Shown: piece by piece, positions 1,033 through 5,751 of the stretch
Layout of the letters: each line of letters begins with the position of its first letter
Position numbering within the stretch: the first letter of the stretch is position 1
NCBI GenBank assembly: GCA_903916595.1
Contig: CAIWXI010000031.1
Coordinates: forward strand, 1-64,000
Reading direction: 5' to 3'
Length of the DNA: 64,000 bases
Source: an uncultured Bacteroidales bacterium
GTDB lineage: Bacteria > Bacteroidota > Bacteroidia > Bacteroidales > FEN-979
Made by a program: the position numbers and the translations under genes
Notes under the pieces: model-generated
The model's input: the letters and a program-made list of their open reading frames with translations, nothing else
Databases searched by the model: none
What the model was told of the DNA's origin: nothing

Positions 1033-1440
1033 TCAGAATGCTCCGATGACTGAATGAATGATCCCGAATGCTTCATCGGAAGCGGCATGAACAGTTTTAG
1101 CTGCAGTTAATGGCAAGCCTTCGGTCATGGCCGACATGTCGAGCATTGCAACGTAGGTTTTACCATCTTCTTTTTCGTAAACCGAAATACGGCAAGGCAT
1201 CAAAACTGATACAATACGTTCATCGTTTTTTTCGAGCATCTTGCCTGAATATTCTGGCTTGCAGATCTCCACAACCTCTACGGGAAGAACTTCTTTACCT
1301 GATTTAGCAAGTGATTGCTGAAGATTATGTGTGGCAGGATTCTGCCATCCTTTTTGTTTTGCTGCTTCTATAAGCTTTTCAACTGTATCCTTTATGTTAA
1401 AAGGACTTACATTCTCGATGATCAAATGGTTTGTGCTCAT
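1033..1440 (-). CDS. DUF302 domain protein
   Basis: A 135-residue protein whose second half (PCRISVYEKEDGKTYVAML, then a Met-rich stretch and a C-terminal helix) matches the DUF302 family, small alpha/beta proteins of unknown biochemical role often found near redox and sulfur genes. Two Cys are visible, in EICKPEY and MPCRIS. No signal peptide or membrane segment, so cytosolic. It lies 19 nt after the Trx-TrxR fusion and 4 nt before the SQR-like gene, so co-transcription is likely. Function cannot be assigned. Confidence 0.85.
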   Translation of the reverse strand: MSTNHLIIENVSPFNIKDTVEKLIEAAKQKGWQNPATHNLQQSLAKSGKEVLPVEVVEICKPEYSGKMLEKNDERIVSVLMPCRISVYEKEDGKTYVAMLDMSAMTEGLPLTAAKTVHAASDEAFGIIHSVIGAF

Positions 1441-1459: not shown

Positions 1460-2728
1460 TTAACTCAGTTCTTTTGCAATGGCAATGGCGGCGATAGTTC
1501 CATCGGCTACTGCCGTGGTTATCTGCCTGTATTTTTTACTGATAACGTCGCCCACGGCATATATGTCGGGCATACTTGTCTGCATGTCTTCGTTTGTCTT
1601 TATATATCCCCATTTATCAAGTTCCAATGTGTCTCTGAAAAGATCAATATTTGGTTTCATTCCAATAAAAACAAACACCCCGTCACTGACCAGTTTGGAT
1701 ATAGTTTTGGTTTTTAAATCTTCAACCTCCGTGATCATTTTATCTCCCTCGCGCACAAAAGATCTCGGCTCATGTGAAAATAGAACCTTGATTTTTTCAT
1801 TTGCAAGCAATTTCTCCTGTGCCTGCTTGTTGGCAGTTAAGGCATCGAACTGGTGAACCATGGTAATTTTACTTGCAAACCGGCTTATAAAATCCGATTC
1901 TTCCACGGCTGAGTTTCCGCCGCCTATCACTACCACTTCCTTGTCGCCATAGTATTTGGCATCGCAGGTGGCACAATATGAGATGCCCTTTCCCTTCAAT
2001 TCTTTTTCCCCGGGTACGCCCATCAGGTTGGGAGATGTGCCGGTTGCAATGATGATTTTTTTAGCCTTGACGGTTTCAAATTCATCTATAATAACTTCTT
2101 TCTTCACCAGGTCAACTTTTGTAACATCAACAGCTACCTTATAAATGGTTCCACATAGTTTGGTCTGTTCCGACATATTGTGCGAAAGCAGATAACCAGG
2201 CTGGGGGTCAATGAATCCGGGGTAATTGGAAACTTCATGTGTAGTTGAAACCTGACCGCCCGGCAGAGCAATATCTATCAATACGGTATTCACTTTCGAC
2301 TGGCATAGGTATAATCCTGCAGTAAGTCCGCCAGGACCGGCACCCAGGATCAGGACCTCGAATTCAGAAACAGTCGGTTTTATTTCTTTCTTGATCTCCT
2401 TGACCCTTTCTGCGGATAACATACTGTCGAGTTGAAGGATGATATCGCTTCGTTTGATTCCGCCGGAAAGTGATACCGGAGATTGCACTCCCTTGTCGAA
2501 AAACAAAAGGGTAGGGGAGGACCTTACTCCCAGGCTCTCGGCCAATGGCTTATTTTGCTGACGGAACATTTTGAAAAACCTGATGTCCTCGCCATAAAGC
2601 GAGGCCAGTCCTTCAAATTTGGGGGCCAAAGCCTCGCATGGAGGGCATTCGGTGGAATAAAAGTCAAGAACAACTTTGCCTCCGGAGAGAACCTCCTGTT
2701 CGAATTCTGATGATGTAATCTCTTTCAT
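1460..2728 (-). CDS. Thioredoxin-thioredoxin reductase fusion
   Basis: A 422-residue two-domain protein. Residues 1-105 are a thioredoxin fold with active site CPPC (C28, C31; the usual Trx motif is CGPC). After a Lys/Glu-rich linker, residues about 123-422 are a low-molecular-weight thioredoxin reductase: FAD motif GAGPGGLTAG near 129, redox pair CATC at 252-255, NADPH motif GGGNSAVEE near 269, and a terminal AVGDV segment. The reductase part is about the usual length. A covalent reductase plus thioredoxin would deliver NADPH electrons to disulfides without a free thioredoxin. It follows the radical SAM gene after a 104-nt gap, so it may reduce the product or enzymes of that locus (inference). 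Confidence 0.92.
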   Translation of the reverse strand: MKEITSSEFEQEVLSGGKVVLDFYSTECPPCEALAPKFEGLASLYGEDIRFFKMFRQQNKPLAESLGVRSSPTLLFFDKGVQSPVSLSGGIKRSDIILQLDSMLSAERVKEIKKEIKPTVSEFEVLILGAGPGGLTAGLYLCQSKVNTVLIDIALPGGQVSTTHEVSNYPGFIDPQPGYLLSHNMSEQTKLCGTIYKVAVDVTKVDLVKKEVIIDEFETVKAKKIIIATGTSPNLMGVPGEKELKGKGISYCATCDAKYYGDKEVVVIGGGNSAVEESDFISRFASKITMVHQFDALTANKQAQEKLLANEKIKVLFSHEPRSFVREGDKMITEVEDLKTKTISKLVSDGVFVFIGMKPNIDLFRDTLELDKWGYIKTNEDMQTSMPDIYAVGDVISKKYRQITTAVADGTIAAIAIAKELS

Positions 2729-2832: not shown

Positions 2833-4158
2833 TTAGGCCTTCCCAAAGTAAGTCGAAAATCCCAGCTCCAGCAATTCCTTTACCGGCCGGCAGTCGGTTG
2901 AGCAAACATTGCCGCTGCGGTTTTTAGCTACTGAACCACAACCGCCGCCGCATGCCAGTTGCATGCTGCAGCCGAAGCATTCGGAGATAGCAGTGACATC
3001 GCGGTTTTCCCAGGCAGCAATAAGTTCATCTTTGCGTGAAACTTCAGGGTAAAAGGTGCCCAGAGATTCGTCGGTTTTCCCTACAGTAGCGGTACATGAA
3101 AAGATATGACCGGTATAATCGAAGGCCCATTCGGTCTTGCATGCCGGGCAGGCATCGAACAAAGGATCGGGAAGACTGCCGTTCTCGAACAGGAATTTCG
3201 AAACGGAATAGGCCGGTTTGTAAAATTCAAGAATATACGGATGCTTCTGAATCTGTTGGTAGATGGTTTCGTAGAGTGAAATACGGCTGAACAGTTTTTC
3301 TGAAGTTGCCTGGCAGTGGTGCAACTCATAGTTCCGGCCGATTTGTGTTTTGAAAAACTCATTTTTTGTCCAGCCTTTATCTATAGCAAATTGCGCCAAT
3401 TCAGGCAGGCCTTGAATGTTTTCCTTGTCAATTACCATTCTCAGGTTTACCGGCAATCTCATCCGCAGACAGGCATCGATCCCGCTCACAATTTTTTCAA
3501 AAGTAGCACCTCCGCCTTTCAGGAAGCGACGTGAATCATGAACAATGCCAATACCGTCAAGTGTGACCTGGATTTCCCGAATTCTTGATGTTCTCAGCAG
3601 GTCGATGTACTCAACCAGGGAATATCCATTCGTCACGAAACAGACTTCAAGATTTGATTCATTCGCCTGCTTAAGCAGGTAAGCTATCAGTTCTTTTTGT
3701 TTCGGTGAATTAAGTAATGGTTCCCCGCCAAAAACCGTAAGGTATTTTTTTTGTCCGGCAAATTCATGACCAACATAACTGAAAAACGCATCAATCACAG
3801 CGGTTGTAAGCTCCTGCTTTACAGGTGCATATTCATCCTGGTAGCAATAAGTGCAGGCGAAATTGCAGCTGTAATTGGGTACAAAAAACAACTGAACCTC
3901 ATCCTCATCACGGGTGTCGATGAAATCAAGATACTTGTTGCGGTATAGCTTTGCTTCATCTTTCTCATCCACCAGGTAGCCCTTTTCCTGCAGATTTTTA
4001 CGAAACTCTTCTGCAATATCTTTTCCTTCAAGATAATCATGAAGCATATTACCTTCAGCCGGACCTAAAATGTCGGCACTGCCGCTAAGCAGATTAACTA
4101 TGAAAAAGTTATCCGACCCGGTAATCCTGGAAAAAATATTGTGTTTTGAATAAACCAT
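2833..4158 (-). CDS. Radical SAM/SPASM peptide maturase
   Basis: A 441-residue protein. Residues 1-70 look like the substrate-recognition region common in peptide maturases (NLLSGSADILGPAEG). The radical SAM motif CNFACTYC (C98, C102, C105) binds the SAM-cleaving [4Fe-4S] cluster. The C-terminal third carries a SPASM-type array: CPAC, then a Cys in HIFSCTATVG, then CFGC, CGGGC and CSTDC, enough for two auxiliary clusters. Family members install thioether or C-C crosslinks on ribosomal peptides, or mature sulfatases. The start is 14 nt after a 39-codon Cys-containing peptide gene, which favours a peptide-modifying role. An ArsM-like methyltransferase precedes both. Confidence 0.93.
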   Translation of the reverse strand: MVYSKHNIFSRITGSDNFFIVNLLSGSADILGPAEGNMLHDYLEGKDIAEEFRKNLQEKGYLVDEKDEAKLYRNKYLDFIDTRDEDEVQLFFVPNYSCNFACTYCYQDEYAPVKQELTTAVIDAFFSYVGHEFAGQKKYLTVFGGEPLLNSPKQKELIAYLLKQANESNLEVCFVTNGYSLVEYIDLLRTSRIREIQVTLDGIGIVHDSRRFLKGGGATFEKIVSGIDACLRMRLPVNLRMVIDKENIQGLPELAQFAIDKGWTKNEFFKTQIGRNYELHHCQATSEKLFSRISLYETIYQQIQKHPYILEFYKPAYSVSKFLFENGSLPDPLFDACPACKTEWAFDYTGHIFSCTATVGKTDESLGTFYPEVSRKDELIAAWENRDVTAISECFGCSMQLACGGGCGSVAKNRSGNVCSTDCRPVKELLELGFSTYFGKA

Positions 4159-4172
4159 TAGATTAACACTTA

Positions 4173-4292
4173 TTAATCATGGCAACCAACGATAGTCTTC
4201 GAGGTTTTAGCACAGCATTGTGCAACTTTCTTTGTGTTTGCTTTTTTTTCTTCAGTTTTAACTTCGATCTTCTTTTTAACAAGGCTTTTCAT
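4173..4292 (-). CDS. Candidate RiPP precursor peptide, 39 aa
   Basis: A short ATG-to-TAA frame in the gap between the methyltransferase and the radical SAM maturase. The first 25 residues are Lys/Glu-rich with no Cys (starts MKSLVKKKIEV), and the last 14 read CCAKTSKTIVGCHD, giving three Cys (26, 27, 37). Such a charged leader plus Cys/Thr/Ser-rich tail is what sactipeptide or ranthipeptide precursors look like. The upstream bases are A-rich, typical of Bacteroidota starts. It sits 82 nt after the methyltransferase stop and 14 nt before the maturase start on the same strand. I recognise no named family; that it is the maturase substrate is inference from position and composition. Confidence 0.72.
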   Translation of the reverse strand: MKSLVKKKIEVKTEEKKANTKKVAQCCAKTSKTIVGCHD

Positions 4293-4374
4293 TTTTCTGA
4301 TTTTTGATTTGTTAATGATTATTTCTGTTTACAAATATCTGATGTATTAAGGTTTTGAGAGTCCTGAGATCTTC

Positions 4375-5019
4375 TCATTTCCCACATTCGCAGGCATCTT
4401 TCTTCCCTGCAATGGTAAAGCTGGCAACTTCGGCATTTCCTTTCTTATAGGGAGCCGATTCTTCTATGATTTCAACGGAGGCAAAACCTGCAATTTTCAG
4501 GTGTTCCATGTATTCAGCACGGGTTACGGAACCGGCCCAGCATTCGGCCACAGCCACCGGATCATTTCTGTACTCTTCTGCAATCGGTTTCGTGGCATAA
4601 ATGTCGCTGATTACAAACCTGCCACCTTTCTTAAGGATGCGGTATATCTCGTTCCATACAGCCTGCTTGTCGCCTGCATGGTTGAGGGTGCAATTTGAGA
4701 TAACCAGATCAGCTGCTTTATCTGGGAGATCAAGTTTTTCAAGTTCGCTTTGGACAAATCTTACATTGGCCACACCAAATTTTTCTGCATTCCGGCGGGC
4801 TTTTTCAAGCATCCCATCCGATATGTCAATTCCATAAACAAATCCTGATTCTCCCACCGATTCGGCCATTCGTAATACATCAGTTCCACGACCGCTCCCA
4901 AGGTCAACACATACCTCACCAGCGTTAGGTTCAGCATAATTTATCGCTCCCCCGCAGGAAAGGCAGCATTCAGATTCGGCCAGTTCACTATACCTGTTGT
5001 TTATCTCTTTTACTTCCAT
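4375..5019 (-). CDS. ArsM-like SAM-dependent methyltransferase
   Basis: A 214-residue class I methyltransferase. The SAM-binding motif DLGSGRG is at 39-45. The pattern matches arsenite methyltransferases: N-terminal ECCLSC (C18, C19, C22), ISNCTLN (C110), GGRFVISDI, then AECWAG (C160); ArsM uses three Cys at comparable places to bind As(III). The protein is shorter than typical ArsM (about 260-400 residues) and ends in an extra Cys pair (C210, C212). It could methylate arsenic, another thiophilic substrate, or the downstream peptide. It is the first gene of the peptide-maturase operon, with a -7 promoter box about 90 nt upstream. Confidence 0.85.
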   Translation of the reverse strand: MEVKEINNRYSELAESECCLSCGGAINYAEPNAGEVCVDLGSGRGTDVLRMAESVGESGFVYGIDISDGMLEKARRNAEKFGVANVRFVQSELEKLDLPDKAADLVISNCTLNHAGDKQAVWNEIYRILKKGGRFVISDIYATKPIAEEYRNDPVAVAECWAGSVTRAEYMEHLKIAGFASVEIIEESAPYKKGNAEVASFTIAGKKDACECGK

Positions 5020-5105: not shown

Positions 5106-5113
5106 CAAAGGTA
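5106..5113 (-). promoter_or_regulatory. -7 promoter box (TACCTTTG)
   Basis: On the minus strand the sequence TACCTTTG matches the Bacteroidota -7 consensus TAnnTTTG. It lies 87 nt upstream of the ArsM-like start and would start the peptide-maturase operon. No clear -33 box was found. Confidence 0.6.
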
Positions 5114-5208: not shown

Positions 5209-5712
5209 CTATGTGTTAACCTTATATTTTAAACTCCCGTTCGGGCAGGATTCCACGCAAAGCAGGCATTTGGAGCAGGTGTAACTGTCGCCGGGTTTAC
5301 TAAGCCCCGATTTGTATAAACTGAATTGTTTGGGTTCCATCGTAACGATATAACATTTTTTATCACAAATACCACAACTTTTACAGGTTTCGTCATTCAG
5401 TTTGATCCTGAAAAGTGAGTATTTGTTCAGCCATCCTGAGATCCATGCTATCGGACAGCCTACCTTATGATACATATACATCTGTTTGATCTTGCCTTCG
5501 GGACTCATTCCCATAAGAAGTTCCATGATCAATCCCATAGGGCATACCCATCGGCAGAATACCTTGCCAAATATCAACCCGGTGATAATACCGGCAAGTA
5601 ATATCCACCATAAGGAAATATGCAAATATGAAATAGCCAGGTAAAGTGAAATACCTGAAACGGCAAGGATGATCATCCTTTTATTAATAAGGAATTTGCT
5701 GGAGTTTCGCAT
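5209..5712 (-). CDS. NapH/NosR-type membrane 4Fe-4S protein
   Basis: About 167 residues from the ATG at 5712 (a TTG lies three codons further upstream). Two membrane segments come first, followed by the polyferredoxin signature FCRWVCPMG, and then two ferredoxin clusters, CKSCGICDKKC and CSKCLLCVESCP. This is the layout of NapH/MauN/NosR C-terminal modules, which pass electrons between quinols and redox partners at the membrane. It is shorter than NapH (about 280 residues), having fewer membrane helices. No partner reductase gene adjoins it. A -7 box and a Crp-type palindrome lie upstream. Confidence 0.85.
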   Translation of the reverse strand: MRNSSKFLINKRMIILAVSGISLYLAISYLHISLWWILLAGIITGLIFGKVFCRWVCPMGLIMELLMGMSPEGKIKQMYMYHKVGCPIAWISGWLNKYSLFRIKLNDETCKSCGICDKKCYIVTMEPKQFSLYKSGLSKPGDSYTCSKCLLCVESCPNGSLKYKVNT

Positions 5713-5751
5713 AGAAATCAATTAAAGCACATAAGTATCACCAATCGGTTA

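Follow-up and report, generated by a model that had tools for sequence, protein, structure and literature searches.

A gene for a 39-residue cysteine peptide lies between the genes of an ArsM-like methyltransferase and a radical SAM/SPASM maturase in the window (the whole stretch of DNA that was analysed, 64,000 nucleotides), and the same cassette, together with a thioredoxin-thioredoxin reductase fusion, recurs in Bacteroidota and Spirochaetota. It appears to be a so far undescribed system of two bacterial phyla, in which the peptide gives rise to a thiol or metalloid cofactor. We read it as a RiPP-type cassette around a conserved, non-secreted peptide, probably with thioether-linked cysteines, accompanied by the ArsM-like methyltransferase and a thioredoxin couple. 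We place this reading as a whole at a probability of about 0.6, and its RiPP component is strong.

The peptide gene and its operon

The genes of the cassette are all on the minus strand, and the features are given here in the order of transcription.

5106 to 5113, minus strand: predicted Bacteroidetes-type -7 promoter box TACCTTTG, upstream of the methyltransferase gene; match to the consensus only
4375 to 5019, minus strand: ArsM-like SAM-dependent methyltransferase, 214 aa; Cys22/110/160 correspond to CmArsM Cys72/174/224
4173 to 4292, minus strand: precursor peptide, 39 aa (MKSLVKKK... AQCCAKTSKTIVGCHD); ATG frame, conserved in relatives
4224 to 4292, minus strand: variable basic leader with the conserved start M[KR][STN][LV][VI]KKK, from the comparison of leaders
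4173 to 4223, minus strand: invariant C-terminal core AQCCAKTSKTIVGCHD and stop, from the comparison of peptides and scans with relaxed DNA patterns
2833 to 4158, minus strand: radical SAM/SPASM maturase, 441 aa; CxxxCxxC at residues 98-105, SPASM cysteines at 337-423; Pfam PF04055
3919 to 4158, minus strand: putative RRE-like N-terminal leader-binding region of the maturase (residues about 1-80, three strands and then three helices in the model)
1460 to 2728, minus strand: thioredoxin (CPPC)-thioredoxin reductase (CATC) fusion, 422 aa; HQFDxLTAN replaces the NADPH motif
1033 to 1440, minus strand: DUF302 protein, an accessory neighbour (40 of 81 loci outside the Spirochaetota sample)

The preliminary description had claimed a 39-residue frame, and we found it as described: 39 codons from an ATG that translate to MKSLVKKKIEVKTEEKKANTKKVAQCCAKTSKTIVGCHD, with the spacing CC-x9-C. 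The claimed distances to the start of the maturase gene at 4158 (14 nt) and to the stop of the methyltransferase gene at 4375 (82 nt), and the common strand, were verified, and the one promoter box is a single match to the Bacteroidetes-type -7 consensus, read from 5113 to 5106. The claim of a three-gene unit stood in part. Methyltransferase, peptide and maturase do form a set, but the fusion gene had been overlooked, and since the operon runs on into it there are four genes in the unit and not three.

Two other neighbours were seen upstream. A NapH-like 4Fe-4S membrane protein is encoded just upstream of the operon (5209-5721) and again in about 10 other loci. In 23 of the 81 loci outside the Spirochaetota sample (for example L065, L051, L062, L087, L090 and L091), a protein of 137-150 aa is encoded on the opposite strand, upstream of the DUF6132 or methyltransferase gene. 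It has only the zinc-ribbon of IS1595 transposases (PF12760), without the catalytic domain, and is possibly a domesticated part of a transposase with a role as regulator. This gene remains with the methyltransferase and the peptide in loci where these are split from the maturase.

The 39-residue frame is a real gene. As had been proposed, we searched relatives of the maturase for a small Cys frame, and found a conserved peptide ending in the motif CCxKx[ST]x4GCHD-stop, kept in 110/110 peptides from two phyla. Their core consensus is AQCC[AST]Kx[ST]x4GCHD-stop. The stricter form AQCCAKxSx4GCHD-stop is common to all 77 peptides of the first set of loci, window included, one of them with L for Q. 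At the codons of the invariant residues these 77 peptides vary only synonymously and use every synonym, for example TGC (46) and TGT (31) for Cys, or GCT, GCA, GCC and GCG for Ala. A C-terminal motif that is shared while synonymous codons are freely used argues that the frame is not a product of chance, and the search for missing coding conservation thus left it standing. Among the 110 peptides there are 67 distinct 18-residue C-termini, and eight core positions are invariant in both phyla.

Leaders range from 14 to 36 aa, have a mean net charge of about +5, and contain Cys in 19 of the 110 peptides. In some lineages the leader has acquired an SCGC or SCC of its own ahead of the core (L067, L069, L070, L072, L074, L077, L155-L158 and L165).

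Distribution and co-occurrence

Scanning GTDB genomes with the maturase yielded a first set of 80 loci, at 58-87% identity. Two of them, L052 and L056, are cut just before the maturase and were excluded from the peptide count; all the others have the peptide except L038 and L045. We rejected these two as true absences, because in both genomes the peptide follows directly after a methyltransferase elsewhere. In G395 and G396 the peptide adjoins the methyltransferase, both apart from the maturase. Such split loci suggest that peptide and methyltransferase remain together when they are parted from the maturase, and it is likely that the two are functional partners.

In Bacteroidota, the relaxed DNA pattern CC-x8-GCHD-stop matched 6 of 395 genomes, all genuine, and in a slightly different draw of 390 genomes the maturase profile found five at 680-833 bits, all among the six peptide-positive ones, with the rest at about 200 bits or less. 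Across the 395 Bacteroidota and 296 Spirochaetota genomes, the peptide motif was the sole motif that the relaxed patterns returned. Among the Spirochaetota, 33 of the 296 genomes have the maturase and 32 of these 33 have the peptide; a control with the reversed pattern gave no match here. The single exception does not represent a true absence, as its maturase is cut at a contig end. Two further Spirochaetota genomes have peptide and methyltransferase without maturase, located at a contig end. Contig ends led us to reject a real loss of the maturase in G587, G622 and G605, where the methyltransferase appears without it. Close homologues of the maturase without the peptide, which would have spoken against the pairing, were therefore not found. 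A GCHD peptide is missing from the next homologues in Bacteroidota, whose identity is about 25-28%.

The peptide is present in 27/27 Spirochaetota loci that were read in detail. L148 had seemed to lack it, but the gene is encoded divergently in the same locus. On contigs that are long enough, the Spirochaetota unit consists of methyltransferase, peptide, maturase and thioredoxin-thioredoxin reductase fusion, in two gene orders. A decayed cassette was seen in L174 (G436:C37); peptide and maturase are deleted, and the end of the reductase gene is directly joined to the methyltransferase. In one Spirochaetota subgroup (L151, L153, L154, L163 and L150) a protein of 54-60 aa with the motif TIDCCKxEI and no Pfam match is encoded directly after the maturase, and is thus a second small CC protein at these loci.

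At the greatest divergence, maturases share 33% identity and methyltransferases about 38%, against 62-81% for the peptide cores, so that the core is better conserved than the enzymes; it remains fixed even where maturase identity has dropped to 33-35%. The distance matrices of maturase and methyltransferase are correlated (r 0.957), which suggests that both enzymes have travelled together. We considered a mobile origin and rejected it, as neither a plasmid record nor a phage homologue exceeded 60% identity. A single pattern match in a viral contig was also discarded, since the motif is not encoded there.

The maturase and its likely product

The radical SAM cysteines C98, C102 and C105 and the SPASM cysteines C337, C355, C394, C397, C403, C407 and C423 are invariant in 42 maturase sequences. 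The AlphaFold2 model of the window maturase (pLDDT 92) aligns with CteB (5wgg) over 400 residues, from residue 4 to 441 (Z 27.1, rmsd 3.6). The alignments with CteB and TigE start at residues 4 and 1, and those with most other radical SAM structures only at about residue 80, which suggests that the first 80 residues are the counterpart of the RRE domain of CteB. In the model these residues have the RRE arrangement, and they are predicted to bind the leader. The claim that a RiPP precursor lies beside its own SPASM maturase is thus backed by conservation, by co-occurrence and by a CteB-like fold with a putative leader-binding region, and the peptide is very likely modified by the neighbouring enzyme.

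The peptide might instead be an unmodified small metal-binding or regulatory protein, with something else as the substrate of the maturase. The CC...GCHD motif could bind metal as it is, and in two genomes the peptide is apart from the maturase, but the near-perfect co-occurrence of the two at the level of genomes and the RRE-like region make this explanation very unlikely.

Peptide maturases of the radical SAM/SPASM group are known for making Cys thioethers, and a Cys thioether is, by this analogy, the likeliest product here. In the ranthipeptide CteA, for example, Cys-Thr gamma-thioethers have been described (PMC10352776). In the peptide of the cassette, the predicted candidates for the acceptor are the invariant Ser/Thr, the Lys and the terminal Asp. 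That the peptide carries a thioether at its cysteines is probable, with less confidence than its modification by the maturase.

Maturases of this kind might suggest a secreted bacteriocin or signal of the sactipeptide or ranthipeptide type, as the core contains Cys and the nearest profile models of the maturase are CefB (142 bits, cut-off 600), TIGR04463 (129, cut-off 525) and PapB (112, cut-off 340). Four relatives of the maturase that were tested are also under these cut-offs. Yet the 107 loci share no conserved gene for an exporter, a protease or immunity, and the core is the same across phyla instead of being diversified, which makes a bacteriocin most improbable. Conservation within the peptide is highest in the core rather than in the leader, which points to a cofactor-like role.

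The methyltransferase and the thioredoxin couple

The best PDB matches of the methyltransferase are CmArsM, CrArsM and AS3MT. Its model superposes on CmArsM (4fr0) with Z 25.0 and rmsd 2.0 over 193 aligned residues, and the next fold that is not an ArsM reaches Z 22.1. Cys22, Cys110 and Cys160 are its only invariant cysteines in 20 diverse sequences (alignment A3), are also present in 63 aligned methyltransferases of another set, and fall on Cys72, Cys174 and Cys224 of CmArsM, which are its As(III) ligands (PMC3877260). An invariant His lies in the motif ISNCxxNH. With 193 bits the protein stays under the cut-off of the ArsM model NF008823 (263), and it is shorter than that model. By sequence and model it is a relative of ArsM that may methylate As(III).

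The preliminary description had suggested that the peptide is perhaps methylated. This now seems doubtful in that form: the cysteines that the methyltransferase has retained are precisely the As(III)-binding triad of ArsM, so that a metalloid bound to thiols, and not the peptide, may be what it methylates. A selenocysteine (UU) form of the CC motif, which the ArsM..UU families of NCBIfam had brought to mind, was not found in L148, L151 or L167-L171.

The thioredoxin-thioredoxin reductase fusion adjoins the cassette in both phyla. Its CPPC and CATC motifs are kept, and about 70 of 72 sequences have HQFDx[LF][TQ]AN. The usual NADPH motif of thioredoxin reductases is HRRxxFR, and its replacement suggests, from the sequence, that the electron donor may be unusual.

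Arsenic, sulfur and a possible mechanism

The neighbourhood of the cassette points in two directions. In L148 (G414:C75) it lies within an ars island with an ArsR-like regulator, a thioredoxin-type ArsC and Acr3, the peptide gene being reversed. Sulfur-redox genes make up most of the neighbours outside the Spirochaetota, encoding sulfide:quinone reductase-like, rhodanese, TauE, CoA-disulfide reductase, YgaP-like, DUF302, DUF6132 and DUF1847 proteins.

If the cassette serves the methylation or sequestration of arsenic or another metalloid, the peptide would be a three-thiol carrier or chaperone of As(III) or MAs(III) for the methyltransferase, its shape fixed by the maturase, and the thioredoxin couple would provide the reductant for methylation. 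The conserved triad, the closeness of the methyltransferase model to CmArsM and the island of L148 favour such a role, and so does the enrichment of Acr3 in Spirochaetota genomes with the cassette (22/33, against 86/263 of the others; Fisher p 2e-4, not corrected for phylogeny). Nevertheless, arsR, arsC and acr3 are absent near the cassette in the other 106 of about 107 loci, so that we rejected a general association with ars operons; several cassette genomes have a separate classical ArsM gene, and sulfur genes prevail outside the Spirochaetota. The link to arsenic is suggestive only, and we regard this explanation as rather unlikely.

We give similarly little weight to a sulfur redox cofactor, by which the modified peptide would carry sulfane sulfur or a thiol-disulfide in anaerobic sulfide or persulfide metabolism, recycled by the fusion while the methyltransferase methylates a sulfur species. 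This would fit the recurrent sulfur-redox genes and the fusion, which belongs to the cassette in both phyla. However, most of these neighbours are missing from the Spirochaetota cassettes, the methyltransferase keeps an arsenic-type triad, and we know of no sulfur carrier peptide of such a kind. That the cassette has a metalloid or sulfur role at all is possible, at somewhat less than even odds.

Under our preferred reading, of a RiPP-type cassette with a cytosolic thiol peptide, the basic N-terminus (MKSLVKKK) would be held by the RRE-like region of the maturase while this radical SAM/SPASM enzyme acts on the core AQCCAKxSx4GCHD; the likeliest modification is Cys thioether linkage of the ranthipeptide type. 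The product would stay in the cytosol as a thiol cofactor or carrier of fixed structure. The methyltransferase would work with it in one of two ways: the peptide may bind or deliver a soft acceptor (arsenic or a thiol-bound species related to it) for the enzyme to methylate, or the peptide may itself be methylated. Enzyme and peptide thiols would be held in the reduced state by the fusion. A bolder and unlikely version is that a thioether-locked thiol peptide binds arsenic, or some other metalloid, and passes it to the methyltransferase, in the extreme as an arsenic-carrying peptide; if true, metalloid methylation would have its first cofactor derived from a RiPP.

Both carrier phyla consist largely of anaerobic bacteria, and the candidate function in these anaerobes is thiol chemistry of a metalloid or of sulfur. 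The fixed core, the arsenic site of ArsM in the methyltransferase and the dedicated thioredoxin couple make this a chemical function that can be tested with four small genes. For annotation, the signature is AQCC[AST]Kx[ST]x4GCHD-stop beside methyltransferase, SPASM and thioredoxin-thioredoxin reductase genes.

Comparison with known systems

The preliminary description had recognised neither the peptide nor the gene set as a named family, and we also found no name for them in NCBIfam, Pfam or the literature outside subscription journals. The cysteine cores, the adjacent co-occurring precursor and the RRE-like domain that characterize the radical SAM/SPASM RiPP class are all present. By sequence and model the cassette belongs to this broad class and would work like SCIFF (CteA-CteB, a ranthipeptide system of Clostridia), where a short conserved Cys peptide also accompanies an adjacent RRE-radical SAM-SPASM maturase. 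CteB is the best full-length fold match of the window maturase. Yet identity in the structural alignment is 17-18%, and the SCIFF maturase model TIGR03974 gives 65 bits against a cut-off of 425. The core of the cassette has three Cys, against six in the SCIFF precursor (TIGR03973), and its motif AQCCxKx[ST]x4GCHD is unrelated, and the cassette adds the ArsM-like methyltransferase and the thioredoxin couple in other hosts, Bacteroidota and Spirochaetota. CefB, TIGR04463 and PapB are the best profile matches, but lie far under their cut-offs and have different precursor peptides. By the cut-offs of these models, the cassette falls outside SCIFF, CefB, TIGR04463 and PapB.

The methyltransferase shares with ArsM and AS3MT the fold and the As(III)-binding triad, but has about 214 aa and no C-terminal domain, reads ISNCxxNH where ArsM has ISNC..NL, and is genetically tied to a Cys peptide instead of ars operons.

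In the PQQ and mycofactocin systems (PqqA-PqqE, MftA-MftC), a conserved precursor peptide and a SPASM enzyme yield a cofactor. The cassette lacks a homologous precursor, a separate RRE gene of the PqqD/MftB type and the further redox cofactor genes, but shares the logic of precursor and SPASM enzyme. To our knowledge, RiPP systems whose core is fixed across phyla are few, and they are mostly cofactors, such as PQQ and mycofactocin, or unsolved, such as SCIFF.
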